This document shows positions 597 to 28,013 of a DNA stretch of 32,623 nt, in pieces. Origin of the DNA: a virus. Where the stretch lies: IMG/VR virus record IMGVR_UViG_3300000116_009546, positions 1 to 32,623 of that record, one strand, 5' to 3'. Within the stretch, counting starts at the first letter, position 1; each line of letters starts with the position of its first letter. The position numbers and the translations under genes are program-made. The notes beneath the pieces were generated by a model that worked only from the letters and a program-made list of their open reading frames with translations, searched no databases and was not told the origin of the DNA.

Positions 597-602
597 ATAT
601 CA

Positions 603-1978: not shown

Positions 1979-1986
1979 TACTTATT

Positions 1987-3812: not shown

Positions 3813-3830
3813 AATAAAAAATAATAAATT

Positions 3831-4409
3831 ATGGGCAAAGAATTAGACAATAAGTATTACGACTCCGTTTTTGGCAAAAAAACCTCGATGTACAACCAGA
3901 ACGCATCACAATTAAAATGGTACTATCCGAATTGGAAAATAGCCTTAGATTATATCATCGAGAATAATCACTTCAATATAGTAGACCTTGGTTGCGGACC
4001 AGGTCATTTCTCTACTCTAATAACGGAAAGCATGAAGGTTAACTATTTGGGTTTAGATTTTTCTGAGACCGCTATATCGCAAGCAATCAAACGCAATAAT
4101 CAAAATAATGTAAACTTCAAATTACAAAACCTAAAAATTTTTGAGCGGCCAAAAATAAAATCTATATTTACTGCATTTGAATTCCTGGAGCATATTAGTT
4201 TTGATAAAGAAATCATAAGCCAGCTCCTTTCTGGAGATCAGATTATTTTTAGTGTGCCAAATTATGACTCAGCTGGACACGTACGCACTTATCCTGATGA
4301 CGATTACATTCGCAATCGCTACAATGAACTTCTTGACTTAGAACAACTAAATATTGTAAAATTTAACGGTCGTCAAAAAATATTTTTATATTTAGGTATT
4401 CGAAGATAG
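3831..4409 (+). CDS. Class I SAM-dependent methyltransferase
   Basis: Methyltransferase of 192 residues. Motif I is IVDLGCGPGHFSTL (about 45-58), the acidic strand-2 end is YLGLDFSETAISQA, and FTAFEFLEHISFD matches the motif around strand 4. After the motif core comes DQIIFSVPNYDSAGHVRTY, a pattern common in small sugar or lipid methyltransferases. The start ATG follows AATAATAAATT with no Shine-Dalgarno. It sits inside the glycan cluster, 18 bases after the oxidoreductase. Substrate unknown. Confidence 0.8.
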   Translation: MGKELDNKYYDSVFGKKTSMYNQNASQLKWYYPNWKIALDYIIENNHFNIVDLGCGPGHFSTLITESMKVNYLGLDFSETAISQAIKRNNQNNVNFKLQNLKIFERPKIKSIFTAFEFLEHISFDKEIISQLLSGDQIIFSVPNYDSAGHVRTYPDDDYIRNRYNELLDLEQLNIVKFNGRQKIFLYLGIRR

Positions 4410-4413
4410 CCTT

Positions 4414-5082
4414 ATGACATCCCAAATAAAAATGCTCAAGAATGATATAGTTATAGTTTTGCACATATATCATGTAGAACTTTGGGAGTATTTTAATGAA
4501 AAATTAAAAAAAATAAATTGTGGTTTTGATCTGTATGTTACATTGTGTCAAGACAATCAAGATATATCAAATAAAATATTAAGCGAATTTCCTTCTGCGA
4601 ATATCAAACAATATCCAAATAAAGGCCAAGACATAGAGCCATTTCTCAAAACAATCAACGAAATAAGGGGAAAAGATTACAAATATTTAATAAAATTACA
4701 CTCCAAAAAATGTGAATATAATTTAAAGCTAGGGTCTCATTGGAGAGGTCTTTTGGTTAATTCTCTTATAGGGTCGAAAGAAATTTTGTATAGAAATATA
4801 TCAATCATCAAAGAAAGTGATTACAAGATGTGTGGATCCAAGCATTGGATAAGATCTCAATACTCTCCATTAACAAAGAATATTCCAATGAATTTTATCG
4901 GAGGCACAATGTTTATTACTGATTTTAAAATATTTGTTGAAAATTTGACCGAAGATATGGCCAATAAGTGGTGCGATAAAATGCCTTTTGGTTATGTTAG
5001 GGATGTATCCTACACACATAAAGTTGAGCGAATGCTTGGTCATTTAATAGTTAAATCTGGATATAAGATTAAAGGGGTTTAA
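4414..5082 (+). CDS. RgpF-like (rhamnan synthesis protein F family) protein
   Basis: Resembles the RgpF family found in O-antigen and rhamnan synthesis clusters, thought to act as glycosyltransferases. The pattern IVLHIYHVELWEYFNEKL near residues 12-29, then FDLYVTL, then KQYPNKGQDIEPFL and YKYLIKLHSKK, follows the order seen in that family (start strand, NxGxDIxPF motif, hKlHtKk motif). A later FIGGTMF block also fits. At 222 residues it is short but has these core motifs. It lies 4 bases after the previous gene. The sugar transferred cannot be inferred. Confidence 0.78.
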   Translation: MTSQIKMLKNDIVIVLHIYHVELWEYFNEKLKKINCGFDLYVTLCQDNQDISNKILSEFPSANIKQYPNKGQDIEPFLKTINEIRGKDYKYLIKLHSKKCEYNLKLGSHWRGLLVNSLIGSKEILYRNISIIKESDYKMCGSKHWIRSQYSPLTKNIPMNFIGGTMFITDFKIFVENLTEDMANKWCDKMPFGYVRDVSYTHKVERMLGHLIVKSGYKIKGV

Positions 5083-5090
5083 ATTGCAAA

Positions 5091-5789
5091 ATGAAAATCG
5101 GTATCATTACTTATAATATTCCTCACCTTAAAACTGAGCAACTTGTTTTGAGTCTTGTTGAAAACAGCCAAATCTCAAAGATTAATTTGTATTGTTTACC
5201 TTTTGTGCCGAGAAAAAAAAGGCATGTTAAATACAACCACAGACCAGACACAAATTTGTCTGTGAGTTTTATAGACTTATCTTATTTTGATAATGTTGAA
5301 TATCGAGAGTGGGATGGTAAATCAAAAGTCTACCACAACGATGATTTTGTTATTATTGCTGGTGCTGGAATTATTGATCCATCCTTATTTGGTAATGTTC
5401 CAATCCTTAATGTGCACCCTGGAATCATTCCTTTGGTAAGAGGTCTTGATGCCTATAAGTGGGCAATTTACAATGGGCATCCATTAGGCAATTCATTACA
5501 TACTATTGATAAGGAGGTTGATAAGGGAAATTTATTGACCATTAAAATGACGCCAATTTTTGAGAGTGATACTTATTATTCTTTGGCAAGAAGACATTAT
5601 GAATATGAAATTAATTTATTAAAAAATTCTATGGATTATCTTGGAAATTTTATTGAAGCTTCTTTTCCCGAGGCATCATCCAATATGAGGATGCCAATCG
5701 ATAAAGAGGATTCCATGATTTTGCGATTTGAAAAATGGAAACAAAAATACTGCTTAAAAAATTCTCAGACTAGAAAAAATAAGATTTAA
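5091..5789 (+). CDS. Formyltransferase-domain protein, probable sugar N-formyltransferase
   Basis: Contains the formyltransferase core used by methionyl-tRNA, GAR and nucleotide-sugar formyltransferases with 10-formyl-tetrahydrofolate. The catalytic triad can be placed: N107 and H109 in PILNVHPGIIP, and D144 in KEVDKGNLL. The DFVIIAGAGIIDPSLF stretch just before is the usual Rossmann-like strand. In a glycan cluster the likely role is N-formylation of an amino sugar nucleotide, as in some O-antigens. No aminotransferase to make the amino sugar is visible in this window, so it would have to lie outside it or come from the host. Length is 232 residues, close to short sugar formyltransferases. 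Confidence 0.82.
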   Translation: MKIGIITYNIPHLKTEQLVLSLVENSQISKINLYCLPFVPRKKRHVKYNHRPDTNLSVSFIDLSYFDNVEYREWDGKSKVYHNDDFVIIAGAGIIDPSLFGNVPILNVHPGIIPLVRGLDAYKWAIYNGHPLGNSLHTIDKEVDKGNLLTIKMTPIFESDTYYSLARRHYEYEINLLKNSMDYLGNFIEASFPEASSNMRMPIDKEDSMILRFEKWKQKYCLKNSQTRKNKI

Positions 5790-5805
5790 ATGTATTATAC
5801 ATAGT

Positions 5806-6678
5806 ATGTATGTAATACTTGGAAAAAACGGATACATAGCTGAAGCTATAATTAAAGAACTAGAATCCAGAAAGCTTTCTTATATCGCCTTAAGTCGATC
5901 TGATGTAGACTATACAGATACCGCAAAACTAGATAAATGGCTATCTAATAATGTATACAGCAAGATTGTTGCAAATCATAATGCGAATATAATTAATTGT
6001 GCGGGGTACATAGGTAAACCAAATGTAGATGCATGTGAAAGTGCAAAAGCTGACACTATAGAAGGCAATGTCGTACTACCCTCTAACCTTGCAATGCTTT
6101 GCAGAAGTAGGGGATATTTATTTACACATATATCTTCAGGATGTATTTACGGGGGTTATTCTAAAGATTTCACTGAAGACGACCCATCTAATTTCGACTT
6201 CCAAAATGGAAGTTTTTATAGTGGCACAAAAGCTTTAGCAGAAAATTTAGTACAAAAAGAATGTGAAAAATCTTATATATTTAGACTAAGAATACCTTTT
6301 GATGAAATAGAATCTCCAAGAAATTATCTGACCAAGTTATTAACTTATGATAAACTTTTAGATGCTAGGAATTCAGTTTCGCATAGGTCTGATTTTGCAA
6401 AATATTGCATTGAGCTTATAGAGAAAAAAGTTCCCTACGGAATATACAATGTAACAAATAAAGGCAGTGTAACCACAAAAGAAGTTGCCGAATTGATGAA
6501 AGAGCATTTACAATTAAATAATAAAAAGTTTGAATTTTTCACCAATTTAGATTCTTTCATGCAAAGTGTGACCGCTCCAAGATCAAATTGTGTTTTAGAT
6601 ACCTCAAAAATAGAGCAATATATAAAAATAAGAAGTGCTAAAGAAGCGATAGCAGACGCTTTGTCTAAATACAGCTGA
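5806..6678 (+). CDS. RmlD-like NAD(P)-dependent sugar reductase/epimerase (extended SDR)
   Basis: Extended short-chain dehydrogenase of 290 residues, closest in layout to dTDP-4-dehydrorhamnose reductase (RmlD). The N-terminus gives MYVILGKNGYIAEAI, a variant of GxxGxxG, then INCAGYIG around 63-70, HISSGCIYGG at 108-117 with the catalytic Ser, and the YxxxK pair Y138/K142 in FYSGTKALAE. It likely reduces a 4-keto sugar nucleotide or epimerises it. No rmlA, rmlB or rmlC homologue is in this window, so the rhamnose assignment is not secure. It follows the formyltransferase with a 16-base gap. Confidence 0.8.
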   Translation: MYVILGKNGYIAEAIIKELESRKLSYIALSRSDVDYTDTAKLDKWLSNNVYSKIVANHNANIINCAGYIGKPNVDACESAKADTIEGNVVLPSNLAMLCRSRGYLFTHISSGCIYGGYSKDFTEDDPSNFDFQNGSFYSGTKALAENLVQKECEKSYIFRLRIPFDEIESPRNYLTKLLTYDKLLDARNSVSHRSDFAKYCIELIEKKVPYGIYNVTNKGSVTTKEVAELMKEHLQLNNKKFEFFTNLDSFMQSVTAPRSNCVLDTSKIEQYIKIRSAKEAIADALSKYS

Positions 6679-6679
6679 T

Positions 6680-7486
6680 ATGATTAATAATAACATATAT
6701 TGTTATTATAACCAAATAAATACAGAAGAAGCTAAAACATTAACTAACCAAAGTCTAGAACTTTTAAATTTATGGAAACAAAGCTGGTCTAAATTTGGTT
6801 GGAATCCAGTAGTTCTGGATGAAAGTAATGCTAAAAAAAACCAAAGAATTAAAAAGATACATTTCAATAGAGATAGTTTTTTATTTAAATTAGATTCAAA
6901 TTTAGTTGAATATTCCAGCCAATGCATAAAAAGATGGTTCGCTTATAGGAGTTGTTTTATAAAAACACCAGAAAATAATATTTCCTGTGAATTTAATACA
7001 GAAAATAATTCATTTTCAATTTCATGCAACACAAATGGAAATTCTAATTATGATTATAATTATATTACTTGGGCAGATTATGATGTAATGAATTATGGAT
7101 TTACTCCAAATGAAGCTTACAGTATTTTTAAAAGCAATCAATTTAAATCGGCTAGATTTTGCGGAGAATATGCATGTGGAATTATGGATAAAGAGGGGTC
7201 TGAAAAAATCATTAACACAATATTAAAAATTAATAATTTAAAATCTGTAGATGAATTAAAAATCTTAATGCCAGAATGGAAAGATGAATTCACCAACGAT
7301 ATGATTTTTTTAATAAATTTAGCGGGATTTAAAAATATTAATGTATGCGAATCTTTTTACAACAAAAAAGCATGGAAAAATTCAAAATTGTTACATTTTC
7401 ATAATGGAGTTAATCATTTAATAAAAGAAGCTAAAAACATTCCAACAAGAAAAGAATTAGTAGAAAGATTAAGGCCTATTTTTTAA
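6680..7486 (+). CDS. Putative glycosyltransferase-like protein of unknown family
   Basis: Not firmly recognised. The N-terminal portion IYCYYNQI... then LLNLWKQSWSKFGWNPVVLDE (about 29-49) follows a pattern I associate with GT-A-like proteins that walk from a start strand to a W-x-x-W-x-x-G-W-x-P block. NYITWADYDVMNYGF (about 126-140) contains a D-Y-D that could act as a DXD metal site. There is no membrane helix or signal peptide. It begins 1 base after the stop of the SDR gene and is followed by a methyltransferase, so it belongs to the same transcription unit. Codon use is strongly AT-rich. Confidence 0.5.
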   Translation: MINNNIYCYYNQINTEEAKTLTNQSLELLNLWKQSWSKFGWNPVVLDESNAKKNQRIKKIHFNRDSFLFKLDSNLVEYSSQCIKRWFAYRSCFIKTPENNISCEFNTENNSFSISCNTNGNSNYDYNYITWADYDVMNYGFTPNEAYSIFKSNQFKSARFCGEYACGIMDKEGSEKIINTILKINNLKSVDELKILMPEWKDEFTNDMIFLINLAGFKNINVCESFYNKKAWKNSKLLHFHNGVNHLIKEAKNIPTRKELVERLRPIF

Positions 7487-7502
7487 TATAAAGATAATAA
7501 TT

Positions 7503-8087
7503 ATGGCAAACTTAAGCTCACAAAAACACCTAGATTACATCAATCATCAAAAACAAAAAACAACAAATCCTGACAAAATTAAAAAATGGCTAGAAGAAGA
7601 ATGGGATGAAAAGCTTAATGGTTTTAAAGAAATTTTTTCTCAGTATGATGAAGCTTTTGATAAAAATGGAAAATGCGTCGGCTTAGGAGCAAGAACAGGG
7701 CAAGAAATAGCCGCGCTCAGAGATTTAGGTTATGATGATTCAATTGGTATTGACTTAGTTCCATTTGAGCCATACACAATAGAAGGAGATTTCCACAATT
7801 TGCCATTCAAAAGCGATTCTATTTCGCTGGTTTACTCTAATGCGGTAGATCATGTATTAAATCCTTTTTTATGGAGTCAAGAAATTGATAGAATTTTACG
7901 CAAAGGAGGTTATATTTTATTTAATTTACAAATCGATATGGGTCAAGATGAATATAGTGTTTTTGAAATAGAAAACATCAAATCTGATTTAATTGATAAA
8001 TATTTTAGTGATTATAAAATAATAAAAAACAATAGCATACCCCAAAATGTTCATGCGATGAACTGGGAAACATTACTTCAAAAATGA
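7503..8087 (+). CDS. Class I SAM-dependent methyltransferase
   Basis: Methyltransferase of 194 residues. The SAM-binding loop appears as CVGLGARTGQEIAALRDLGY (about 58-77) with SIGIDLVPF as the strand-2 acidic end, then LPFKSDSISLVYSNAVDHV and ILRKGGYILFNLQ, which match motifs of the Methyltransf_11 group. The motif I glycine pattern (GLGARTG) differs from the usual DxGCGxG. The start ATG follows AAAGATAATAATT, again no Shine-Dalgarno. The stop overlaps the next start by 4 bases. Substrate unknown. Confidence 0.78.
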   Translation: MANLSSQKHLDYINHQKQKTTNPDKIKKWLEEEWDEKLNGFKEIFSQYDEAFDKNGKCVGLGARTGQEIAALRDLGYDDSIGIDLVPFEPYTIEGDFHNLPFKSDSISLVYSNAVDHVLNPFLWSQEIDRILRKGGYILFNLQIDMGQDEYSVFEIENIKSDLIDKYFSDYKIIKNNSIPQNVHAMNWETLLQK

Positions 8088-9055
8088 AAATAAACTTTAT
8101 TTCAAGTAATGTAAACTTAAACAGAGGGAGTTATAGAATACACGTTCGAGATTTAAATGATTATTTCAACCAATGCAATTTTAATTCGTCAATTAATAGT
8201 AATAAATTTTCAAATGTTAGCATACTAGATAAAGGATTAAATCCTAATGTTTCTAATTCTCGCATAGTGGGCTTAATAACTCCTAATGCTGACGATCATA
8301 AACAAATCAAACAAGCTGATTTTTGCATAGTTGGCTCTGCAGAAGAAAGAGAGAGTTTAATTCCTTTCAATAAGAATGTTTTTATTTTTCCTCAAATAGA
8401 GCGAGCGTATTTGAATAAAACTCAGAAGAACCACACAAAAAAAGAAGTGATTACATTGGGGTATCATGGAAACCCGCATCATTTAAATCATTTTTCACTC
8501 GGTCTTAACCGTGCATTGAGTAGGATTTCAAAAAAAAATAACATAGAACTTTTAATATTCAAAAGCAAATTAAGCCAAATGTCTAACTGGGTTGCAGAAA
8601 AGCCTGACATCCCGATTAAATATATTGATTTTAATTTAAAAACATTCTCTTCAGATATATATAATTTCGACATAGGATTGGTTCCAAATATTTCTGAATT
8701 TACTATAGGGAAACAAGATGAACGTATTGCAGAGGGTATTTATAATACAGATTATAAAATTAGATTTAAACACAAATCTAATATAGGCAGAGCCTTAGTT
8801 TTGATACAACACGGAATACCTGTTATTTGCGATATAACACCATCAAATATGAGTATATTTCATGATCCCAACAATGGGTACGCTGTTTTAAGTGAAGATG
8901 GTTGGTATAATGCTATTGAATCACTTATTGACCACAAAGAGAGAAATCGTGTTGCACAGAATGCATACGATCAATATTTAAAGCTTTATAATCCAATTTA
9001 TTGGGCTAAAGATTTATACGAAAATATAAACAAAATATATCTTAAAAAGAAATGA
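8084..9055 (+). CDS. GT-B fold glycosyltransferase (GT4-like)
   Basis: Putative glycosyltransferase of 323 residues. The N-terminus INFISSNVNLNRGSYRIHVR looks like a GT-B start with a donor-side Gly/Ser-Tyr-Arg motif. The C-terminal half has NIGRALVLIQHGIPVICD (about 258-275), the helix-strand typical of GT1/GT4 proteins just after the E-x7-E region, followed by YAVLSEDGWYNAIESLIDH, the closing helix. The classical E-x7-E is not clear. It overlaps the genes on both sides by 4 bases. Acts presumably in the cytoplasm; sugar unknown. Confidence 0.7.
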   Translation: MKINFISSNVNLNRGSYRIHVRDLNDYFNQCNFNSSINSNKFSNVSILDKGLNPNVSNSRIVGLITPNADDHKQIKQADFCIVGSAEERESLIPFNKNVFIFPQIERAYLNKTQKNHTKKEVITLGYHGNPHHLNHFSLGLNRALSRISKKNNIELLIFKSKLSQMSNWVAEKPDIPIKYIDFNLKTFSSDIYNFDIGLVPNISEFTIGKQDERIAEGIYNTDYKIRFKHKSNIGRALVLIQHGIPVICDITPSNMSIFHDPNNGYAVLSEDGWYNAIESLIDHKERNRVAQNAYDQYLKLYNPIYWAKDLYENINKIYLKKK

Positions 9056-9780
9056 ATGGAATAATATACATTGCCTTCAATGATGTATTCGTTAAAGAAG
9101 CTAAATTATCAGCTGAATCACTTAAAAGATTTTCTGATACACCAATCACTCTTTTTACTGATAGAGATATCGATTGCGAATATATAGATGAAATCAAAAT
9201 TATAAAACCAGATCACATAAGATCCAAGGTTGATTATATCTCAGAATCTCCATATAAAAAAACATTATATCTTGACTCTGATACGGTCATCGCAAGGGAC
9301 ATATCGGACATGTTTGATGTACTTGATAGGTTTGATGTCGGGGTTACTCATGATTACGCTAGAAAGCGAGAAAATTATTGCAACATACCAGAATATGACA
9401 GGATACCATACTCATTTTCTGAAGTAAACGGCGGAATAATGGCTTTTAACGATTCTGATAAAGTCAAAGCATTTTTTAAATTGTGGAAAAAATATTTTTA
9501 CAAGTATAGACATCTTACTTCTGGCTGGGATCAAGTTAGCCTAAGGATATCTCTTTGGGAAAGTCAGGTCAGGCTTCATCACTATCCACCTGAGTACAAT
9601 GTCCGACCAGAATCTATTCGTGAAAAAGTTAAAAATAATCATAAGAAATTAGGCGAAGGCCATTTAAAACCAAGAATATATCATATGCACTATGACAACG
9701 AAGTTCATCATGGAAACTATAATGTAAAAAATCTTGAGGAGCTAGAAGGTATTGTTAAAGATAAAGCCATAGAATTATAA
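9052..9780 (+). CDS. Glycosyltransferase, GT8-like with DXD motif
   Basis: Nucleotide-diphospho-sugar transferase of 242 residues. The order is a start strand GIIYIAFNDVFVKEAKLSAESL, then TPITLFTDRDI, then PYKKTLYLDSDTVIARDI with D75-S-D77 as the metal/donor DXD, and NGGIMAFNDSDKVKAFFKLW. The last block is the conserved substrate region in GT8-type enzymes, and HMHYDN near the end supplies a possible metal-binding His. It starts inside the stop of the preceding gene (ATGA). Donor and acceptor unknown. Confidence 0.78.
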   Translation: MNGIIYIAFNDVFVKEAKLSAESLKRFSDTPITLFTDRDIDCEYIDEIKIIKPDHIRSKVDYISESPYKKTLYLDSDTVIARDISDMFDVLDRFDVGVTHDYARKRENYCNIPEYDRIPYSFSEVNGGIMAFNDSDKVKAFFKLWKKYFYKYRHLTSGWDQVSLRISLWESQVRLHHYPPEYNVRPESIREKVKNNHKKLGEGHLKPRIYHMHYDNEVHHGNYNVKNLEELEGIVKDKAIEL

Positions 9781-9787
9781 AACAATT

Positions 9788-10609
9788 ATGAACGATATAC
9801 AAAGAAAAATAATAGATTGTTTTATATTTTATAACGAATTGGATATGTTAAGTTATAGACTCAAAGTATTAAATGATTATGTAGATTATTTTGTTTTAGT
9901 TGAGGCAAAATACACCCACAAGGGAAATAATAAAAAACTTTACTTTAATGAAAATAAAAATAAATTCAGAAAATATTTGCATAAGATAATACATGTTATA
10001 GTCGAAGATGTCCCAGACTACAACATCTTGTCTTCATATAAAACTTGGGGCTCAAATAAAATAGCTTGTTACAATGAAATACATCATAGAAATTGCATTA
10101 AAAGAGGTTTAAATGATTTGGCTTTACAAGATAATGACCTAATTATTATTAGCGATGCGGACGAAATACCCAACCCGAAAAAATTTCATTTAATGAAAAA
10201 AGATGAAATTAATTCAATGCAAGCATTAGTTTATTATTATAATTTAACATGCGTGGGTCACTATAGCAATAAGCTATGCCCCAAGCTTTTAACATTTAAA
10301 AAACTTTCTCAATATTCCTGCCAATCAATAAGAAAAAAAACTCAAAATATTATTCCAAAATCCGCTTGGCATTTAAGTTATTTCGGTAATTCTGATTTTA
10401 TAATAAATAAAATAAGTGAGTTCAGTCATTGTGGCGATAGCATAGTTAGTGAAATTTTAAATTCTAATAATCCAGAGAAAGAAATCAATAACAGGATAAA
10501 AGAATCTAGAGATTTATTTTCGGGAAGAGCTTCCAACTTTAGACATTTAAAAATTCAAGATAATAAAGATCTACCCCCTTTTATTAATTTTTTCAAAAAC
10601 TATAAATAA
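9788..10609 (+). CDS. GT17-like glycosyltransferase
   Basis: Resembles glycosyltransferase family 17, named for the eukaryotic beta-1,4-mannosyl-glycoprotein N-acetylglucosaminyltransferase but also found in bacteria and large viruses. Features are IIDCFIFYNELDMLSYRLKV (8-27), the VDYFVLVEAKYTHKG strand (32-46), and LIIISDADEIPNP (118-130) with D123/D125/E126. The usual downstream His-rich tail is represented by SAWHLSYFG and FSHCGDS. Length 273 fits. The start ATG is preceded by ATAAAACAATT without Shine-Dalgarno. The family call is strong; the linkage is not known. Confidence 0.85.
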   Translation: MNDIQRKIIDCFIFYNELDMLSYRLKVLNDYVDYFVLVEAKYTHKGNNKKLYFNENKNKFRKYLHKIIHVIVEDVPDYNILSSYKTWGSNKIACYNEIHHRNCIKRGLNDLALQDNDLIIISDADEIPNPKKFHLMKKDEINSMQALVYYYNLTCVGHYSNKLCPKLLTFKKLSQYSCQSIRKKTQNIIPKSAWHLSYFGNSDFIINKISEFSHCGDSIVSEILNSNNPEKEINNRIKESRDLFSGRASNFRHLKIQDNKDLPPFINFFKNYK

Positions 10610-10612
10610 ATT

Positions 10613-11194
10613 ATGACTGCTAAGTTTAATGACAATTGGTATAGCGACTCTCAGCTCAGAGATCTAGGTGATATTGTATCGCAAATTCCCGACAAAGAGG
10701 GTGCTGTGATTGAAATTGGTTGTTGGGAAGGAAAGTCTACCCATTTTTTAGCCAATAAAATTTACCCTCAAAACCTTATATGCAATGATACATGGCTGGG
10801 GAATATTGCAGAAAGCCATGTTACAAAAAAAAGGCATATAGAAGAAATAATTTTAGAGACAAGAGATGTTTACAGTATTTTCCTAAACAATATGAATGAA
10901 TTAACAAAAGGCAACTATTCGATAGTTAAAAAGGATTGCTTTGATTGGTTAAAGAGTTTTGACAAGCCGATTAAATTTTGCCATATAGATGCATCGCATG
11001 ATTATGAAAGTGTTTTTAAAACCATCAACTTATTGTTGCCCCATATGATCCCAAATGGAATATTGTGCGGGGATGACTTTTTAAATGCATCCGCTAATAG
11101 GGAGGATCTAAACGGAGGTGTTGAAAGGGCTGTTAGAGAGGCTTTACCCCAGTACCAAAGTAAAAAAAATATTTGGTGGTGGATTAATAAATAA
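10613..11194 (+). CDS. SAM methyltransferase, Methyltransf_24-like
   Basis: Methyltransferase of 193 residues similar to the class that includes cephalosporin hydroxylase- and TylF-related proteins. Motif I is VIEIGCWEGKSTHFLANKI (about 32-50), the strand-2 end is LICNDTWLG, and the hallmark FCHIDASHDYESVFKTINLL followed by NGILCGDDF supplies metal-like D/H residues. The gene right after the next gap has the same layout, suggesting an old duplication. It ends in a short inverted repeat. Target is probably a sugar hydroxyl or amino group, by context only. Confidence 0.8.
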   Translation: MTAKFNDNWYSDSQLRDLGDIVSQIPDKEGAVIEIGCWEGKSTHFLANKIYPQNLICNDTWLGNIAESHVTKKRHIEEIILETRDVYSIFLNNMNELTKGNYSIVKKDCFDWLKSFDKPIKFCHIDASHDYESVFKTINLLLPHMIPNGILCGDDFLNASANREDLNGGVERAVREALPQYQSKKNIWWWINK

Positions 11195-11209
11195 AGATAA
11201 GCGTATCTT
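11194..11209. other. Short inverted repeat (AAGATA-AGCG-TATCTT)
   Basis: A perfect 6-bp inverted repeat with a 4-base loop begins at the last base of the preceding stop codon, in the 50-base gap between the two Methyltransf_24-like genes. The stem is AT-rich and is followed by AAATATATAAAA rather than a run of T, so it is a poor intrinsic terminator. It could be a weak RNA hairpin or an operator; chance is possible in DNA this AT-rich. Confidence 0.25.
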
Positions 11210-11244
11210 AAATATATAAAAATTAATAACAATACATAAATAAA

Positions 11245-11916
11245 ATGCCATCACTAGAGAAACCAGACACCGAAGGTAAATATAGGGTCAAGTTACCCCT
11301 ATCCGAAGCGAATAAAGCAAGAGAGTCTTTTCTAAAAGAAATCTCTCCACTATTACCCAAAGAGAGTGTAGGTATAGAGATAGGGGCCCAGTCGGGGGTT
11401 TTTTCGTCACTTATATTAAAATGCCTTCCATTAAAAAAATTGTATTTAATTGACCCGTGGGAAAAAGCCTCAGGGTGGCCTCCAAATGAGGAGCCACCTT
11501 CGTTACCTCCATCTCTCAAGCATGGAAACCTCTCTTCGCATAAAAAACTTTTTGATAATGCCGCTTATTCGACAAACAATGAATTAAGGTTGGTCCAAGG
11601 AAAATTTTCTCAAGAAATAAACGAAGGGAGGGTTGAGTTAAAGCAGGGGCTTTCCTATGATTTGGTGGATGATTTTCCAAATAATTATTTTGATTTTATA
11701 TATATTGATGCCTGTCATATATATGAATGTGTAAAGGCAGACCTAGAAGCTTACCTTCCTAAGCTAAAACCCGCTGGCCTTATGTGTGGTCATGATTATT
11801 ACAAAAGTCATATTTGGGGAGTCGATGAGGCTGTAGACGAATTTCTGAAGACTCATAAAGAATTTAAATGGCAAACATTAAGCCCTGAGTGTGATTGGGC
11901 ATTGAGACGGAAATAA
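11245..11916 (+). CDS. SAM methyltransferase, Methyltransf_24-like
   Basis: Second methyltransferase of the same type as its upstream neighbour, 223 residues. Motif I is VGIEIGAQSGVFSSLILKCL (about 39-58), the strand-2 end is LYLIDPWEKASGWPP, and the FDFIYIDACHIYECVKADL / AGLMCGHDYY block supplies the D/H residues typical of the group. It starts after a 50-base gap, the largest in the cluster, and its opening codons look less AT-rich than its neighbours. That could mean a separate acquisition. Substrate unknown. Confidence 0.8.
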   Translation: MPSLEKPDTEGKYRVKLPLSEANKARESFLKEISPLLPKESVGIEIGAQSGVFSSLILKCLPLKKLYLIDPWEKASGWPPNEEPPSLPPSLKHGNLSSHKKLFDNAAYSTNNELRLVQGKFSQEINEGRVELKQGLSYDLVDDFPNNYFDFIYIDACHIYECVKADLEAYLPKLKPAGLMCGHDYYKSHIWGVDEAVDEFLKTHKEFKWQTLSPECDWALRRK

Positions 11917-11919
11917 TTG

Positions 11920-12678
11920 ATGAAATGTTTAATTTTATTTACAGCACACGGGAGTACAGAAGAGTGGGAGATAGCTGCCGCTTTCATGAATTCATACCCA
12001 GATGATTCCATTTTGAGGAACGCTGACATTTTAGCTTATGTAAATTGCCCTTCGGTTTCAGCAACTAAAATAGAGAATTATCTTAAAAAATTTCCAAATA
12101 AAAACAAAAGGTTGCTATATACACCCCTTAACGGACACACGGTTGACCCTTCGTTAGAGTTGACAGAGCAAGGTAATGGACTGAAGACCTCGAATAAAGA
12201 TCTCGGCTTTTATCATTCTCAAGTAAAAAATACTTTCGGATGGAGAGCAGGAACACTAGAGGCGTATGCGATAACCTTTCCACTTGTTCGTCAATATGAC
12301 TATGTCATACATTTAAACATAGATGCATATGTAACAAATACAAAATATATAGATAGACTACTTGTAGATAATTTAAATAATGATGTTTCTCATCATGTAT
12401 TTGATTGGAGAAATGGAAATGGTTTTGCCTCTGACTGTCAAATATATCGTCCAAGTAAATTTAAGTACAATCACTTTCAAGATTATAAAATAGGAATAGA
12501 TAAATATAAAGATGGAAGTAATAAATTTGTAACAGAATATATTTTATCTTGGTTAATAAAAAAAGACTCAGAAATAAAGTATAAAATAATCCCTTCCAAT
12601 AGACGTGATTTTGGAATTTGGCACACACATGACAATGAAAAAGTTTTGAAATTTATTAAACAGAAAAATATTATGTAA
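11920..12678 (+). CDS. Putative glycosyltransferase-like protein of unknown family
   Basis: Protein of 252 residues not confidently recognised. I chose the ATG at 11920 over the in-frame TTG at 11917. It begins MKCLILFTAHGSTEEW, a plain beta-strand start, and carries QYDYVIHLNIDAYVTN (about 127-142), where D-Y and N-I-D occupy the place a DXD has in GT-A glycosyltransferases. HHVFDWRNGNGFASDCQIYRP follows as a possible substrate-side loop. HTHDN near the C-terminus may bind metal. The position between a methyltransferase and a radical SAM gene supports a glycan role, by association only. Confidence 0.45.
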   Translation: MKCLILFTAHGSTEEWEIAAAFMNSYPDDSILRNADILAYVNCPSVSATKIENYLKKFPNKNKRLLYTPLNGHTVDPSLELTEQGNGLKTSNKDLGFYHSQVKNTFGWRAGTLEAYAITFPLVRQYDYVIHLNIDAYVTNTKYIDRLLVDNLNNDVSHHVFDWRNGNGFASDCQIYRPSKFKYNHFQDYKIGIDKYKDGSNKFVTEYILSWLIKKDSEIKYKIIPSNRRDFGIWHTHDNEKVLKFIKQKNIM

Positions 12679-12679
12679 T

Positions 12680-13573
12680 ATGGAATGGTCGAAAGATGAT
12701 ATATTTAAAGGTAATATAGAAATTACTACCAAAATAGGATGCTCCAATATGTGCGAGTATTGCCCTCAAATTAAGTTAATAAAAAAATATCAGTCTCCAG
12801 CGAGAATGATGACTTTAGAAAATTTCAAAAAATACACTAAAGACATCCCGCCCTCTCTTAATTTTCATTTCACTGGTTACGTGGAACCCTTTGATAATCC
12901 AATTGCTCACGAATTAATCTTATGGGGTCATGAACTAGGCCATAAGCTTAGAATTAGTACAACTCTCGAAGGGCTTTCAAAAAATCAATATCATGCCATA
13001 CGAGATATTCCTTGGGACGACTTTAGCATCCATTTGCCTTCCTCCTCCTATGATGAAAGGATAGGTATTGGAAGTAGAAAAGATCTTCATGAATGTGGAC
13101 GTCCTAAACTAAGGGAAGATTGGTTAGAAATGCTTGACTATGTTTGTTCCAATAAGCCTAGGGGTAGGTTCACTGCTCATCCTCATGGAGGTTGCCATCC
13201 GCAAGCAATCCCTATTTTAAAAAAGAATAATGTGCCAGTAAAGGATATGAAGCTAACAACTCGTGCCCAGAATACTGATGACGAAAAAGAGTTAAGAAAA
13301 AAAAGAGAAGAATCCTCTAACAAGAAAAAAAAGTTACCTCCAGGCCAAAATATTAGAGGTAAATGTGCCAGAGTTTATCAGCCCGTGCTTTTACCAGATG
13401 GTAAACTAGCATTATGTTGTGCGGATTATGGATTAAAACATGTATTCGGAGATTTGTCTAAACAAACATGGTCAGAATATAGGCACTCTGAGCAATTTAA
13501 AAATTTAGTAAGGCACGGTGCAGATCTTTGCGATTTTTGCGACTTTGGAATAGTATATAATATCTCTAATTAA
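12680..13573 (+). CDS. Radical SAM protein with SPASM-like C-terminal cysteines
   Basis: Radical SAM enzyme of 297 residues. The [4Fe-4S]-SAM motif is CX3CX2C at C21, C25 and C28 (KIGCSNMCEYCPQ). NFHFTGYVEPFDNP around 61-74 fits the SAM-contact GxEP-like strand. The C-terminal part has C229, C246, C247, C284 and C287, with LLPDGKLALCCADYG in between, which resembles the auxiliary-cluster SPASM/twitch region. Such proteins modify peptides or sugars (epimerisation, deoxygenation, cross-links). No small precursor peptide is seen next to it, so a sugar or glycan substrate is more likely here. It starts 1 base after the previous stop. Confidence 0.85.
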   Translation: MEWSKDDIFKGNIEITTKIGCSNMCEYCPQIKLIKKYQSPARMMTLENFKKYTKDIPPSLNFHFTGYVEPFDNPIAHELILWGHELGHKLRISTTLEGLSKNQYHAIRDIPWDDFSIHLPSSSYDERIGIGSRKDLHECGRPKLREDWLEMLDYVCSNKPRGRFTAHPHGGCHPQAIPILKKNNVPVKDMKLTTRAQNTDDEKELRKKREESSNKKKKLPPGQNIRGKCARVYQPVLLPDGKLALCCADYGLKHVFGDLSKQTWSEYRHSEQFKNLVRHGADLCDFCDFGIVYNISN

Positions 13574-13582
13574 GTCTTGTTT

Positions 13583-14233
13583 ATGAAAAAACATGGAGGG
13601 CTGGAAGTATTTTCAATGGAACATAAAGAGAGCTTTGGGCCATACTACAAAATGAGTAGATATAAAACTTACCAGCAAATAGCGCTAGATCTTGAGGGGT
13701 ATAACCTTAAAGGGGATGCTGTTGAAGTAGGCATATCGAATGGAATATTATATAATATGTTAGATACAAATAAATGCACCCTAACTGAATTAAAATATCC
13801 AAGTTATGATATGCAAAACCTTTCTACAGTTAAGGATGAAACTTATGATATTTATTTATGTGATAACACCTTAGAGCATATACCATCTCCTACCAAAGGG
13901 CTTAAAGAGGCTCAAAGAGTTCTAAAAAAGGGAGGCATTGGAATATTTATCGTTCCATTTATAGCTCTTTGCCAACCAGATGACTACTTTAGATTCTCCA
14001 AGTTGGCACTTGAAATTTTATTTAAAGATTTTAACAATTTTTCTATTAAAAGCTGGGGTAATAATGAAGCCGCTTCGTGCTACATCAAGCACGATAAATG
14101 GGTAACCGTAGACAAGGAAGAAAACGACACACTTTATTGTTGCAATAAATTGATACCAGGTTGGTCAAAGCAAATACCATCAACGAATGATGAAAAATAC
14201 CCAATACACTATTCTATAATTGCTGAAAAATAG
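13583..14233 (+). CDS. Class I SAM-dependent methyltransferase (Methyltransf_11-like)
   Basis: Methyltransferase of 216 residues from the ATG at 13583 (an in-frame TTG at 13577 is less likely). Motif I is degenerate, AVEVGISNGILYNML, and the strand-4 motif YDIYLCDNTLEHIPSPTKGL plus EAQRVLKKGGIGIFIVPF is textbook for the Methyltransf_11 group. The missing second Gly of motif I (GISNG) may weaken SAM binding or simply be divergent. It lies in the glycan cluster between the radical SAM gene and a GT2 gene. Substrate unknown. Confidence 0.75.
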   Translation: MKKHGGLEVFSMEHKESFGPYYKMSRYKTYQQIALDLEGYNLKGDAVEVGISNGILYNMLDTNKCTLTELKYPSYDMQNLSTVKDETYDIYLCDNTLEHIPSPTKGLKEAQRVLKKGGIGIFIVPFIALCQPDDYFRFSKLALEILFKDFNNFSIKSWGNNEAASCYIKHDKWVTVDKEENDTLYCCNKLIPGWSKQIPSTNDEKYPIHYSIIAEK

Positions 14234-14242
14234 TTTTCACAT

Positions 14243-14968
14243 ATGAAATCTAGCAAAAAAATTACAATAAATTTATCCTATTACAACCAAGAAAAAGTCT
14301 TAAAAGATCATATCTATCTTTGGAAGAGTTATTCCGATGAAGTGAAAAAACAATTTTCATTTTGCGTCGTAGATGATTGTAGTAAAATTCCAGCCGATGA
14401 AGTTCTTTCTGATATTGATTTAAGTGATTTGGATATTAAGATTTACAGAGTCACGGATGACCTGTATTGCAATATTGCAGGCGTAAGAAATTTAGCTGCT
14501 ACGATGTGCGAAACTGATTGGATGGTCATACTTGATATGGACACAATGATATCTGAAGAATTAGCTGAATCGATGCTGATTCTAATATCTGCGACTAGTG
14601 GGAATTGTTTCAAGTTTAATAGAACAGTCCCTTCGGATAAAAATCATGAAAAGAACAACCAGATCCATCCAGCCGTTTGTCTATTAAGAAAAGAAGACTA
14701 CTGGAGTGTTGGAGGGTGCGAAGAAGATCTTGTCGGTCACTATGGTCAGACAGACCCTATTTTTTGGTATCGTGCTAGAGATAAAATAAAAGTACACATA
14801 ATGCAAAATTTATATCTAGATTATATACCAGAAGGAGAAGCGGAAATAAATAGAGATCGAACACATAACGCCAATCTTTTCGAACAAAAAAAGAAAAATA
14901 ATAGCTGGTCCACAGACCAGTTAAGATTCAAATGGAAGCAACTATTTATGAATGATCGAATGCTCTAG
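14243..14968 (+). CDS. Glycosyltransferase family 2
   Basis: GT2 enzyme of 241 residues. It has the family start TINLSYYNQEKVLKDHIYLW, the nucleotide-binding FCVVDDCSKIPADE (40-53), VRNLAATMCETDWMVILDMD (81-100) with the DXD at D98-M-D100, and GGCEEDLVGHYGQTDPIFWYR as the acceptor-side GG-x-(E/D)ED block. This is the most complete GT2 pattern in the left cluster. It is the last + gene of the cassette and its 3' end overlaps the convergent minus-strand gene by 23 bases. Confidence 0.87.
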   Translation: MKSSKKITINLSYYNQEKVLKDHIYLWKSYSDEVKKQFSFCVVDDCSKIPADEVLSDIDLSDLDIKIYRVTDDLYCNIAGVRNLAATMCETDWMVILDMDTMISEELAESMLILISATSGNCFKFNRTVPSDKNHEKNNQIHPAVCLLRKEDYWSVGGCEEDLVGHYGQTDPIFWYRARDKIKVHIMQNLYLDYIPEGEAEINRDRTHNANLFEQKKKNNSWSTDQLRFKWKQLFMNDRML

Positions 14969-21407: not shown

Positions 21408-21436
21408 TTGATTTTTAATAAAAATTAGTGTATACT
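21408..21436 (+). promoter_or_regulatory. Candidate sigma70-type promoter of the tmRNA
   Basis: TTGATT at 21408-21413 and TATACT at 21431-21436 are separated by exactly 17 bases. The predicted start of transcription near 21443 would leave a short leader of about 19 bases before the mature tmRNA 5' end at 21462, consistent with RNase P trimming. AT-rich sequence raises the chance of such matches, but the placement is well suited. Confidence 0.5.
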
Positions 21437-21461
21437 TGTATTAAGTTCTTTAAAATTTTAT

Positions 21462-21903
21462 GGGGGTGTTCTGGATTCGACTGATGTTGGATTCTTGCAC
21501 TGCAAGTCGGAGATGTGTCAGGCTCCGATATCAAGACACAAAGCTGTACATGGCGAAGGTTATGATAGCATTGAAGAGCTTCTTGAAGCAGCTCGTGAAG
21601 AGTACGATAATCTCGTGCAATTCGAGCAGGCTGAAGAGCTTGAGATGGTAGCTTAAAAGCTGCCCCCTCGCAACTTTTGACGCAGATATTAAGATTGCGG
21701 GGTCACCAATCTGCAAAACAGATAAAAGTTTATCTATTTCATAAACTGTACCACTGAGTATTCGGGGGCCTCAAGTTTGAGTGAATAATTGAAATGGTTA
21801 GTTAGATGCTAATATCACAACTATAAAAAAAATTAGCTAAACTTGTAGATGTGCTTGCTTGAAGGCACTCAGGACGCGGGTTCAACTCCCGCCACCTCCA
21901 CCA
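21462..21903 (+). ncRNA. ssrA: Transfer-messenger RNA (tmRNA), one-piece
   Basis: Complete tmRNA of 442 bases, for ribosome rescue by trans-translation. The 5' end GGGGGTGTTCTGGATTCGAC and the 3' end with T-arm GCGGG-TTCAACT-CCCGC, acceptor CACCTCC, discriminator A and encoded CCA form the tRNA-like domain; the third acceptor pair is G-U, the alanine identity element. P2 pairs GCAC-TG-CAAG (21497-21506) with the 3' strand at 21842-21854. PK1 is perfect: TCGGAG/CTCCGA (21507-21512 with 21523-21528) interlaced with TGTGTC/GACACA (21514-21519 with 21535-21540). PK2 uses CGCAA/TTGCG and GCAGAT/ATCTGC (21669-21714). It is longer than the usual 350-400 bases mainly because of the long tag frame. 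The last 22 bases overlap an antisense gene. Confidence 0.97.
21552..21656 (+). other. tmRNA tag-peptide reading frame, 34 codons
   Basis: The resume codon is most likely GGC at 21552, 11 bases after PK1 and tmRNA position 91 (E. coli resumes at 90). U and A sit at -5 and -4 as in E. coli. From there the frame runs 34 codons to TAA at 21654-21656: it begins GEGYDSIEELLEAAREEY and ends AEELEMVA. Twelve residues are Asp or Glu and only one is Arg. With the charged Ala the tag would be 35 residues, against about 10-15 in many bacteria. The end is MVA instead of the common LAA. A GCT three codons earlier is an alternative resume point (37 codons). Confidence 0.85.
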
Positions 21904-22316
21904 TTTAAAATTAATTTTAAACTTTTTTTAACCCAAATATCTAAAGACTGGTCTGTTAATATTAAATCGGGATTTTTTGGTGGATCAAATAATTTATTAG
22001 TATCTTCAAATCTCCCGCTTTTAATTCTATTAATATATATAATGTAATCAGGATTAAATGCTGATCTACATTCTTTTATTGGACAAACAAAGTCGGCAAT
22101 TACATAATTACCACCATAGGTCGCCCATTCACATATTTTACCCATTCTTTTGGCCTGTTCTATTCTGTCTTCCTTGCTCCATCCCAAATCTTTGTTTATA
22201 TTCTCTCTAACTAGGTCGGCATTAAACCAAGCGGCATTTAATTCTTTAGCTAAAACTTTTGCTAAAGTTGTTTTGCCAGAACCAGGCAGCCCCATGATTA
22301 GTATTTTCCTTTTCAT
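21882..22316 (-). CDS. APS kinase-like P-loop kinase
   Basis: P-loop kinase of 144 residues resembling adenylylsulfate kinase (CysC), which phosphorylates APS to PAPS. Motifs: Walker A GLPGSGKTT (9-17), then FNADLVRENINKDLGWSKED (31-50), which matches the DGDNxR-x-x-L-x-x-DLGFSxxDR region, then IADFVCPIKECRSAF. The NAD in place of DGD and the missing KGLY-type region suggest a divergent enzyme, so another small substrate is possible. The last codons encode GGGGGS and lie antisense to the 3' end of the tmRNA. The gene stands alone on the minus strand between two + units. It would supply PAPS only if a sulfotransferase exists, and none is seen here. Confidence 0.75.
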   Translation of the reverse strand: MKRKILIMGLPGSGKTTLAKVLAKELNAAWFNADLVRENINKDLGWSKEDRIEQAKRMGKICEWATYGGNYVIADFVCPIKECRSAFNPDYIIYINRIKSGRFEDTNKLFDPPKNPDLILTDQSLDIWVKKSLKLILNGGGGGS

Positions 22317-22452: not shown

Positions 22453-23334
22453 ATGCTAATTACATTTTGCATATCAGCTTACAAGGAAGACGACTATCTT
22501 ATTAATATAGTTAAAAAGCTTGTCAATCAAGAACATAAGAAGTTTAATTGTATAATACAAGACAATAGTGTCGACGGAAAATTTAAAAAAATTTTAAATA
22601 CAATCAAAGATTTGCCTAATTTTTTATACGATAAAAAAAATACAGATGGACTTTCTGATTCAAGAAATAGATGCGCCGCTATTGCAAAAACAAAATACGT
22701 ATATTTTTTAGATGACGACATCGATATTGAAACAGACTTCACAAAAACCGTAGAAAAGTATATTTTATACCACAAATGCCCTCATATAGTCGTGGGCAAG
22801 GTTTTACCTGAGTGGAACAATAAACAAAGACCTGAATGGATTCAAGATGGTATGCTTGGTTTAATGTCTATAGTCAATTTAGGAGAGCAACCTTTAAAAT
22901 ATAGACAAGGAAAATTTACATGGGCTGCAGGCGCGAATATATGTTTCGAAAGGAAAAGTTTCGTCGAAGCGGGTGGGTTTTCTACAAAATTGGGTCGAGA
23001 TAAAAACTTTGATTCTCTGCTTAGTGAAGAAGAAAATCAATTAATAAGAAAAATGCACAAGCAAAATGCATATATTTTATATGTACCTCAAATAGTAGTT
23101 AAGCATTTTATAAAAGACGAAAAGTTGACTAAGAATTGGATGATAAAAAGAGTAGCATGGCAAGCCGTTTCTGATGTATTATGCGAGCAAAACTGGTATG
23201 ATAATAAAGACATTCAAGATGTTTTAATAAAGGATGCCTCTATGTCTTTATACAATAAAGAAACCGAAAATTTCTCTAAATATTTATCTAAAATAAGATA
23301 TTTATGTTATAAAATGTTAAAGGGAGAGATTTAG
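22453..23334 (+). CDS. Glycosyltransferase family 2
   Basis: GT2 enzyme of 293 residues with a full set of family signatures: LITFCISAYKEDDYLINIVK (2-21), FNCIIQDNSVDG (31-42), LSDSRNRCAAIAKTKYVYFL (67-86) running into the DDDID metal site (87-91), and FTWAAGANICFERKSFVEAG with GG(F) and LLSEEENQL (the ED-like catalytic block). The C-terminal third is helical and lacks membrane segments. It is followed directly by the fucosyltransferase-like gene with no gap, so these two form a small operon separate from the left glycan cassette. Confidence 0.88.
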   Translation: MLITFCISAYKEDDYLINIVKKLVNQEHKKFNCIIQDNSVDGKFKKILNTIKDLPNFLYDKKNTDGLSDSRNRCAAIAKTKYVYFLDDDIDIETDFTKTVEKYILYHKCPHIVVGKVLPEWNNKQRPEWIQDGMLGLMSIVNLGEQPLKYRQGKFTWAAGANICFERKSFVEAGGFSTKLGRDKNFDSLLSEEENQLIRKMHKQNAYILYVPQIVVKHFIKDEKLTKNWMIKRVAWQAVSDVLCEQNWYDNKDIQDVLIKDASMSLYNKETENFSKYLSKIRYLCYKMLKGEI

Positions 23335-24285
23335 ATGAAAGCTATAGTTTATTGCATTACTAACGAAGCAACAAATCAATTTGGTCATTGCCAAACATTA
23401 GACGGGATAGGTTCAATCATGAACGGAATAGCATTTTGTCATCAAATAGCTTTGGTAAATAATTTAGAATTCAAAATATTATGTAAAAACAAAAAAATAA
23501 AAAAATTTATTAACATAGAAAAATTTGAATTAAAAAATGAAGAAATAGATGCTAGTAGTATTATAAATATGCCTGGAGATTTATTAATAGATTTATTGAG
23601 GCAAAATAAAAATAACTTTGATGTTGCTTTTGTTTCAACAAAAGGTGTTAATCTAAATTACAATTTTCTGAAAGAGACAAAAAAATTAATAGATGAAATT
23701 TTTAGAAAAAACGAAACAGTATTAGAGATTTTTGATAAAATCAAAGCTAATAAAAATATCCAAAATGTTCTACATATAAGAACTGGAGATTACATATGTT
23801 TAACTGAAGAAAAAATGGAAAAATATTTCCCTCCATCTAGCTATCCCTTTAGACCCGATAAATGGTTTAATTTAATGGACGAAGATACTAGATTAAAATT
23901 AATATCTCAATATATACCAAAAACAATTAAAAGGATTGGATTTGTTTGTTCTGACAATTCAAAAATAAAATATAATTTAAATAAAAAATTTAAAAATTTA
24001 GGGTATATAAAACAACATTCTATGCATTCAGGAATTTCTGATGCTCGAGATGATGATATTTTATTGCCTTTAGTTGAATTTAATATAATGTCAAACGCAA
24101 ATGAATTATATTCAATATATTCAAATCCTTATGGGAAAAAAATGTCTAGTATGTTTTTTTGGTCTTCAATGTTTAAACCTTTAAAAACAATCAATTACTT
24201 CTTGGATTGCCAAGAAAATTCAATAGAGAAAGATATGAGCGGCCTTCAAGAAGGTTTTCTTACGCAGGAAGATCTGTCTATATAA
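23335..24285 (+). CDS. Fucosyltransferase-like (GT11/O-FucT-related) protein
   Basis: 316 residues. The central HIRTGDY (147-153) matches the H-x-R-x-GD signature of alpha-1,2- and protein O-fucosyltransferases, where the Arg contacts GDP-fucose. RIGFVCSDNSKIK about 55 residues later matches the (F/V)CSDN motif of the donor domain. The N-terminal half has GIGSIMNGIAFCHQIALVNN, a helix typical of these GT-B enzymes (usually GGLGNQ). Similarity outside these motifs is low, so donor GDP-fucose is likely but not certain. It begins immediately after the GT2 stop, and its end overlaps the convergent sigma-like gene by 40 bases. Confidence 0.65.
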   Translation: MKAIVYCITNEATNQFGHCQTLDGIGSIMNGIAFCHQIALVNNLEFKILCKNKKIKKFINIEKFELKNEEIDASSIINMPGDLLIDLLRQNKNNFDVAFVSTKGVNLNYNFLKETKKLIDEIFRKNETVLEIFDKIKANKNIQNVLHIRTGDYICLTEEKMEKYFPPSSYPFRPDKWFNLMDEDTRLKLISQYIPKTIKRIGFVCSDNSKIKYNLNKKFKNLGYIKQHSMHSGISDARDDDILLPLVEFNIMSNANELYSIYSNPYGKKMSSMFFWSSMFKPLKTINYFLDCQENSIEKDMSGLQEGFLTQEDLSI

Positions 24286-26976: not shown

Positions 26977-27252
26977 TTATTCTTCGAACATTGTTAATTG
27001 GTTTTGATCTATTTTCTGATCTGATTCTAATTCTATCATAACATCATCCATTTTGTCAATACTTTTTTTATCTCTCATCCAGTTTCTTTGAGCTACTCGA
27101 ACAACAAAACGCATAAAAGCAAAAGCATATACTTTATTTAGCTGTATACTATCAGCGTCGTTTTCTTTATCAGAGTCAGTTTCAATTATGAATTTTTTAT
27201 TTTCTTCATCATAAGTGAACTTGGCATGTTTCAATTTTTTAACAATTTTCAT
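26977..27252 (-). CDS. Small phage-like protein of unknown function
   Basis: 91 residues from the ATG at 27252. This start overlaps the upstream stop by 4 bases (ATGA) and has GGAGG 8 bases before it, one of the few good Shine-Dalgarno matches in the window, although that GGAGG is also coding sequence; an upstream start at 27267 is less likely. The second half, NKVYAFAFMRFVVRVAQRNW, is an amphipathic basic helix, followed by an acidic tail ending DQNQLTMFEE. No family recognised. Charge layout suggests a nucleic-acid- or protein-binding role. Confidence 0.55.
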   Translation of the reverse strand: MKIVKKLKHAKFTYDEENKKFIIETDSDKENDADSIQLNKVYAFAFMRFVVRVAQRNWMRDKKSIDKMDDVMIELESDQKIDQNQLTMFEE

Positions 27253-28013
27253 AAAAAATTCCTCCAACCAGATCCAGTTTTTTTAAATAAATCACCATTT
27301 GCTCTTAAAGCAGTTGTACTGAATGGGTCAATCCCCTCACTCAATAATAGAAAATTGAATAATGGTTGATCTCTATAAGACAAATATTGGTTAGAATAGT
27401 ATTTCCAAAACAAAGAAGAAAGCTTTTTGTATGTAGTATTATTGGGATTATATCCTATGACTGTGTTTTCAAAATACTGACTAAAATCAAATGAGACATT
27501 TTTATTTAAATTTTTTAAAAAATTTATTGATGTTTCCATAATTGATTCGCTATCTCTGCCTGATCTAATAATATTTTTAACTTCGGCATTTATTCCACCA
27601 TTTACGACCGAGGAATCTCTGTGTGGGCTCAATCCAAATCCAGCTTTGCTTTTAGATATTGATCTAGCAAGATTCTCCCAGTCATAATCAGGTATGGGGC
27701 TAAGCCAACTATCGCAATAAAAAATAAAATCATATTTCCGTAAAATTTTCCAACACAGAAATTTTGGAAACCTTGATTTTTTAGCGTTTAATATGCAAAT
27801 ACTTTTGTTCGCTTCTTGTAATCTAACATTCTCATAATTTTTACTTAAATTAGTAAAGAAATCTTCCTTTACATTTCTTAAAGACCATTGTGTATTTAAT
27901 TTAAAATTTGAATAAACTATATAGTCGTATTTAGGATTTTTTTTAAAAGATCCTATTCGGCAGGATGTAGAAATTTGGTCTCCAAACAAAGATGTTATGA
28001 AGCATATTTTCAT
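27249..28013 (-). CDS. TOD1/MUCI70-like (DUF616-type) glycosyltransferase
   Basis: 254 residues. The order of motifs follows the TOD1/MUCI70 glycosyltransferase-like domain: KYDYIVYSNFKLNTQWSLRN (28-47), SRFPKFLCWKILRKYDFIFY then CDSWLSP (80-106, D101 in the DXD-like place), a PHRDSSVV block near 135-143, and RDQPLFNFLLL near 217. No membrane helix is seen. It sits in the minus-strand operon between the DNA methyltransferase and small regulatory genes, overlapping both by 4 bases, away from the main glycan cassette. Acceptor unknown. Confidence 0.7.
   Translation of the reverse strand: MKICFITSLFGDQISTSCRIGSFKKNPKYDYIVYSNFKLNTQWSLRNVKEDFFTNLSKNYENVRLQEANKSICILNAKKSRFPKFLCWKILRKYDFIFYCDSWLSPIPDYDWENLARSISKSKAGFGLSPHRDSSVVNGGINAEVKNIIRSGRDSESIMETSINFLKNLNKNVSFDFSQYFENTVIGYNPNNTTYKKLSSLFWKYYSNQYLSYRDQPLFNFLLLSEGIDPFSTTALRANGDLFKKTGSGWRNFL

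Follow-up and report, generated by a model that had tools for sequence, protein, structure and literature searches.

The reason that phages carry tmRNA genes has so far been guesswork, and the locus described here raises the question of what such a gene would do in a viral genome. The window, the whole stretch of DNA that we analyzed, covers 32,623 bases and corresponds to bases 1-32,623 of an 80,766-base IMG/VR virus record (G000) from a marine phage. A one-piece tmRNA had been predicted at this locus, and the covariance-model search proposed as a check gave a significant match with both PK1 and the tRNA-like domain (TLD) intact: in a cmscan of the window, RF00023 aligned over its full length (1-374/374) at 21462-21903 (+), with 112.6 bits (cut-off 47 bits) and an E-value of 1.8e-43, as the sole Rfam family found. 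A separate search of the genome records agreed with this placement, and the RNA has one-piece order, matching RF00023 in cmscan and not the two-piece (permuted) models RF01849 or RF04321. ARAGORN, also proposed as a check, did not report the tmRNA in the window, though it does report several close relatives. The locus is certainly a tmRNA.

In G000, the tmRNA lies among virion-protein, Pol III, ClpC and other phage genes, and we found the same tmRNA gene again in more than 20 other viral contigs. Because phage genes flank the tmRNA and the gene recurs in this way, a host chimera is very unlikely; we rejected it, and the description of the source as a phage-like genome stands. The accompanying statement that few phages carry a tmRNA was overstated, since by 2021 the count stood at 402 of 18,146 phage genomes (about 2%; PMC9004378), and annotations list a tmRNA for many Streptomyces and Mycobacterium phages. 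On the opposite strand, the 3′ end of an APS-kinase-like P-loop ORF (21882-22316, -) shares 22 nt with the tRNA-like 3′ end of the tmRNA. Elsewhere, window positions 48-14968, 22453-24285 and 27249-28013, together with parts of G000 beyond 50 kb, hold very many glycosyltransferase-, sugar-nucleotide-enzyme- and methyltransferase-like genes.

Scanning IMG/VR with the conserved 5′ end of the RNA yielded 73 loci, and scanning with the tag yielded three further viral loci and one MAG contig that is itself phage; 23 tmRNAs of the window's scaffold were alignable over their entire length. We wrote a structure model (P1, P2, PK1-PK4, P5 and T arm) from the window sequence and found that PK1, PK2, PK3, PK4, P2 and P5 contain 92.2% standard pairs across the 23 sequences. 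Double-sided changes occur at 30 of 73 pairs (16.1 in shuffles), and 114 cells carry such changes, whereas shuffles give 33.3 and slid controls no more than 27; taking the model from one aligned sequence gives it an advantage over the slid controls, which does not account for the count of compensatory changes. The acceptor stem GGGGGTG/CACCTCC with its G3-U436 pair and the encoded CCA are invariant in 23/23 relatives. These data show that the tmRNA structure is intact and under compensatory selection, in agreement with the original prediction of an intact one-piece RNA with G3-U70, CCA, P2, PK1 and PK2. Coordinates of all features are collected in Table 1.

Table 1. Features of the tmRNA locus and the Hsp100 gene of the same virus record
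Feature	Coordinates	Strand	Basis
Sigma-70-like promoter, TTGATT-17-TATACT	21408..21436	+	9/12 match in AT-rich region; similar elements upstream of most relatives
boxA-like GTTCTTTAAAA, directly before mature 5′ end	21445..21455	+	Perfect match to published consensus GYTCTTTAANA (PMC5725501)
tmRNA (ssrA), one-piece, mature 5′ end to encoded CCA	21462..21903	+	RF00023; 23-relative alignment; covariation
Acceptor stem 5′ half GGGGGUG, holding G3 of the G3-U70 alanine identity pair	21462..21468	+	Invariant G3-U pair, 23/23
PK1 (CGGAG/CUCCG and UGUGUC/GACACA)	21508..21540	+	Compensatory changes in both stems
Tag frame including stop, resume codon GGC, encoding GEGYDSIEELLEAAREEYDNLVQFEQAEELEMVA*	21552..21656	+	pN/pS; resume context; AlphaFold2
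P5 hairpin around tag stop codon	21647..21664	+	Window pairs 7/7; relatives variable, 66% paired
PK2	21666..21714	+	Covariation test
PK3	21718..21746	+	Covariation test; pseudoknot with weakest support
PK4	21800..21837	+	Covariation test
T arm GCGGG-UUCAACU-CCCGC	21876..21892	+	Paired in all 23 sequences; two double changes
Acceptor stem 3′ half CACCUCC and encoded ACCA	21893..21903	+	RF00023 match; alignment; covariation
ClpC-type Hsp100, 799 aa (G000, outside the window)	35205-37604	-	Colinear with S. aureus ClpC

The original prediction left out what we consider the interesting part of this locus, namely an unusual tag, an association with Clp, and a boxA. The tag peptide GEGYDSIEELLEAAREEYDNLVQFEQAEELEMVA has 34 residues, a net charge of -11 and an EMVA end, and so departs from the canonical ssrA degron of about 10 residues with an LAA end; the commonest bacterial tag length is 10 (PMC11915505). 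Its resume context in the window has U at -5 and A at -4, as E. coli U85/A86 (PMC2481249), and across relatives A at -4 is invariant and U at -5 nearly so. In seven acidic-tag phages, pN/pS is 0.27 in the tag frame, while the other two frames contain stops and give 1.21 and 2.42; in nine phages with a basic tag (GAKNRVRALGFKNRLAAKRFGFKSRKLALAA type) it is 0.23 versus 1.26 and 1.51. These values show that the tag frame is under purifying selection. The selection tests on tag and structure together led us to reject a pseudogene or decoy, and the RNA very likely functions in trans-translation; charging, use of SmpB and trans-translation themselves we infer.

The acidic and basic tags are unalignable and opposite in charge (about -11 versus +10), and the surrounding RNA reaches 84-88% identity across the two classes. 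Basic-class tags terminate in canonical LALAA. AlphaFold2, run on the single sequence, models the acidic tag as one helix (residues 7-33, mean pLDDT 91.6), and this helix is amphipathic (hydrophobic moment p 0.007). The basic tags vary in length, at about 20 or 31 residues, and differ in an in-frame internal segment (FKNRLAAKRFG-like; L009, L048 and L015 versus L071 and others), as if tags grow by in-frame duplication.

The plausible promoter upstream of the RNA also found support: on inspection, most relatives have a TTGAC...TATA(A/C)T-like pair in the corresponding position. Between this promoter and the mature 5′ end lies GTTCTTTAAAA, and the window holds no other 11-mer of this type (0.19 expected). 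A boxA with at most one mismatch to GTTCTTTRAAA is found at -16 to -20 in 25/26 relatives (0.07 in shuffles), and a boxA also precedes 8/19 tmRNAs of other Clp-linked lineages. More than one lineage of phage tmRNAs is thus directly preceded by a GTTCTTTRAAA boxA-like element that resembles rRNA antitermination leaders, and its sequence suggests that it may function as a boxA at the tmRNA, in antitermination or in processing.

Outside the window, G000 encodes an Hsp100 that lies 13 kb from the tmRNA on the opposite strand and matches S. aureus ClpC end to end with 621 bits. The protein has the full ClpC layout of two N repeats, D1, M domain, D2 and ClpP loop, with one N repeat falling below the Pfam cut-off. 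Its M domain is ClpC-like, both Walker sites and the pore loops are intact, and an SLGF motif aligns to the GF ClpP loop of ClpC. Among 48 viral records from the tmRNA scans, we detected an Hsp100 (AAA_lid_9) in 14/21 scaffold-family records and in G018, whose tmRNA is of a different kind and likewise long-tag. With three long-tag records from outside the family included, 15/24 phage records with a long-tag tmRNA contain an Hsp100, compared with 0/18 of those with a short-tag one (Fisher p 1.4e-5 with relatedness ignored, a value that overstates because related phages are not independent). The short-tag count comprises confirmed tmRNAs and omits L007, L046, L049, L052, L067 and L068, in which the tmRNA is unconfirmed. 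Hsp100 was undetected in the large long-tag records G002, G012, G016, G019 and G042 (76-149 kb), which may be incomplete.

A reverse search, started from an alignment of phage Clps, gave the same association: 24 of the 50 phage records found by Clp similarity contain a tmRNA, versus about 2.3% of phages (PMC9004378). In the 40 records with both clp and tmRNA, every tag that was read has 20-41 residues, the two genes lie less than 5 kb apart in 28 (7.6 expected by random placement), and the tmRNA is downstream of clp on the same strand in 32. Only 32-220 bp separate them in G005, G006, G021, G023, G055 and G060, and several other relatives have the tmRNA 1-5 kb past clp. The scaffold-family gene order is Pol III alpha - clpC - tmRNA - nucleoside-deoxyribosyltransferase-like gene, and in a separate lineage the tmRNA follows clp by 2.4-5 kb. 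In the huge phages G083 and G092 the tmRNA begins 129-134 bp after clpP, and in G084 clpP, clp and tmRNA adjoin one another. These data show that long-tag tmRNAs are associated with, and frequently adjacent to, phage clp genes, and at the level of association the tmRNA likely belongs to a Clp-linked tagging module of the phage.

Several further observations concern the gene content of these phages. The clpP-tmRNA spans are 193634-194645 in G083 and 222727-223757 in G092, both phages of more than 300 kb. The phage ClpP of G084 (43599-44135) has one in-frame TAG, a possible stop-codon reassignment or sequencing error. In the basic-tag phages L113, L114, L115 and L116, a gene of about 430 aa is located between clpC and tmRNA, and the L113 copy, which we tested, has no Pfam match. 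We found smpB in G063, G083, G088 and G092 and no SmpB in the 20 mostly scaffold-family records searched, G000 included. ClpP was not detected in any viral scaffold-family record, G000 included.

We did not find strict co-evolution of tag and unfoldase. The Clp tree mixes acidic and basic tag classes, so a strict lock-and-key relationship is unsupported: the Clps of G021 (acidic tag) and G060 (an unrelated tag of near-neutral charge) are sisters, and phages with only about 42% shared between their Clps have acidic tags that barely differ. Phage Clps are mostly about 35-70% identical to each other and their tmRNAs 68-94%. Judged from this greater divergence of the Clps and from the mixing of tag classes, tmRNA genes appear to travel between phages independently of clp.

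We compared the locus with known systems. It shares with tmRNA/ssrA (RF00023, e.g. E. coli ssrA) the TLD with G3-U70 and CCA, P2, PK1, the U(-5)A(-4) resume context, the tag ORF, the P5 stop hairpin and PK2-PK4, but differs from E. coli ssrA in its 34-residue helical acidic tag with EMVA end, GGC resume codon, boxA leader and phage origin. Like the tmRNAs of Streptomyces and Mycobacterium phages, phage G and pelagimyophages/Melnitz (PMC4131195, PMC9004378), it is phage-encoded, and SmpB was undetected in most records searched. The pelagimyophage/Melnitz tmRNAs, as many marine ones, are two-piece (PMC4131195, PMC9004378), whereas that of the window is one-piece, and the tmRNAs of these known kinds that we examined have, unlike the window's, short tags such as ANSKFAFALAA or ANDNVALSLAA, with no Hsp100 in the 18 short-tag records. 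A phage contig with a short-tag tmRNA and many tRNAs, L014, also carries a GOLLD RNA (RF02032; 9666-10138, -). Huge and jumbo phages have been reported, separately, to encode tmRNA and SmpB (PMC7162821) and ClpP, ClpS, ClpA and ClpX (PMC7824862), and the window's phage group has the same classes of translation and proteolysis genes. The phage Hsp100 resembles the unfoldase of the ClpC/ClpA-ClpP protease in its layout, including the GF-type loop; unlike that system, G000 has no ClpP and the phage Clps are strongly diverged from one another. Phage tmRNAs are thus already known; the link between long-tag tmRNAs and clp and the adjacency of clpP and tmRNA are not described in the literature that we searched.

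Two relatives have PSCyt2/PSD1 genes, one of them also with a full DUF1501 gene, and these families are known mainly from planctomycetes and verrucomicrobia. Gene content is therefore compatible with a host in the PVC (Planctomycetes-Verrucomicrobia-Chlamydiae) group, and such a host would fit the chlamydial resemblance that the original prediction proposed for the acceptor ends. We did not accept an alphaproteobacterial host suggested by MAG contig L078: the contig is phage (Pol III, ClpC, tmRNA), binning is weak evidence, and the MAG's own Clp gene (L085) is distinct. The G000 Pol III is only about 30% identical to those of cultured phages and the neighboring 1290-aa virion protein has no match among cultured phages, so no cultured host can be assigned.

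We think it probable that the phage tmRNA is functional and feeds tagged proteins to Clp proteolysis, most likely via the phage's own unfoldase. The tmRNA would have its own promoter and be made with a boxA leader; host AlaRS would charge it, and host SmpB would bring it to ribosomes stalled on broken mRNAs in infection. Translation would resume at GGC and add the acidic helical tag ending in EMVA, and Clp would then unfold and degrade the tagged proteins, with the phage ClpC-type Hsp100, docked on host ClpP, as the most likely unfoldase. A less likely alternative is that a host-acquired tmRNA simply frees ribosomes when host mRNA is degraded, with a long tag that belongs to the host lineage and is degraded by host ClpXP, while the phage Clp does other work (virion assembly, chaperoning) and the genes co-travel in one replication module. 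Consistent with this alternative, the tags end in VA/AA as normal tags do, tag class does not track Clp clade, and the synteny from Pol III alpha to the deoxyribosyltransferase gene could be passive linkage. The PVC-type genes in two relatives also point to hosts that may themselves have long tags; the chlamydial tag has 22 residues. Against it, one scaffold carries two opposite tag classes, and the association of long tags with Clp recurs in clearly different scaffolds and tags (the GNVLNKM... lineage, GKNKVSELF..., DNDFIVSENF...), some of them beside clpP.

It is quite improbable that the tag is protective or a signal, for example one through which the phage Hsp100 would solubilize or disaggregate proteins independently of ClpP, or one that would protect phage proteins against host ClpXP. 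The amphipathic acidic helix and the lack of a phage ClpP in the scaffold-family records would fit such a role, but the phage ClpC keeps its GF-type ClpP loop, basic-class tags have the canonical degradation end, and other clp/tmRNA phages do encode ClpP. Least credible is a decoy RNA that would titrate SmpB or block the tmRNA of the host, a role proposed for phage DS6A, whose tmRNA is TLD-only. A phage RNA of that type is on record, and inhibition of E. coli tmRNA by a similar molecule has been described (PMC4131195, PMC11915505), yet a decoy has no need of a tag, and the full 442-nt RNA here has kept its tag frame as well as P5 and PK2-PK4.

The tendency of long-tag tmRNA phages to encode their own Clp unfoldase suggests a phage-borne "tag and destroy" kit. 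We propose, more tentatively than for the single locus, that some phages carry a complete system of this kind. Its tmRNA would be boxA-driven and encode an extended tag specific to the phage; together with a phage Hsp100, and in some phages ClpP and SmpB as well, it would handle the proteins of infection-stalled ribosomes independently of host ssrA/ClpX, with the long tag serving as a grip for the unfoldase. One RNA scaffold bearing two tags of opposite charge offers a natural experiment on what a degradation tag requires. With long tags under selection, a tie to viral Clp that recurs across lineages and a conserved boxA leader, the question of why phages carry tmRNA now has a concrete answer that can be tested: some may bring their own kit for stalled ribosomes and broken proteins.
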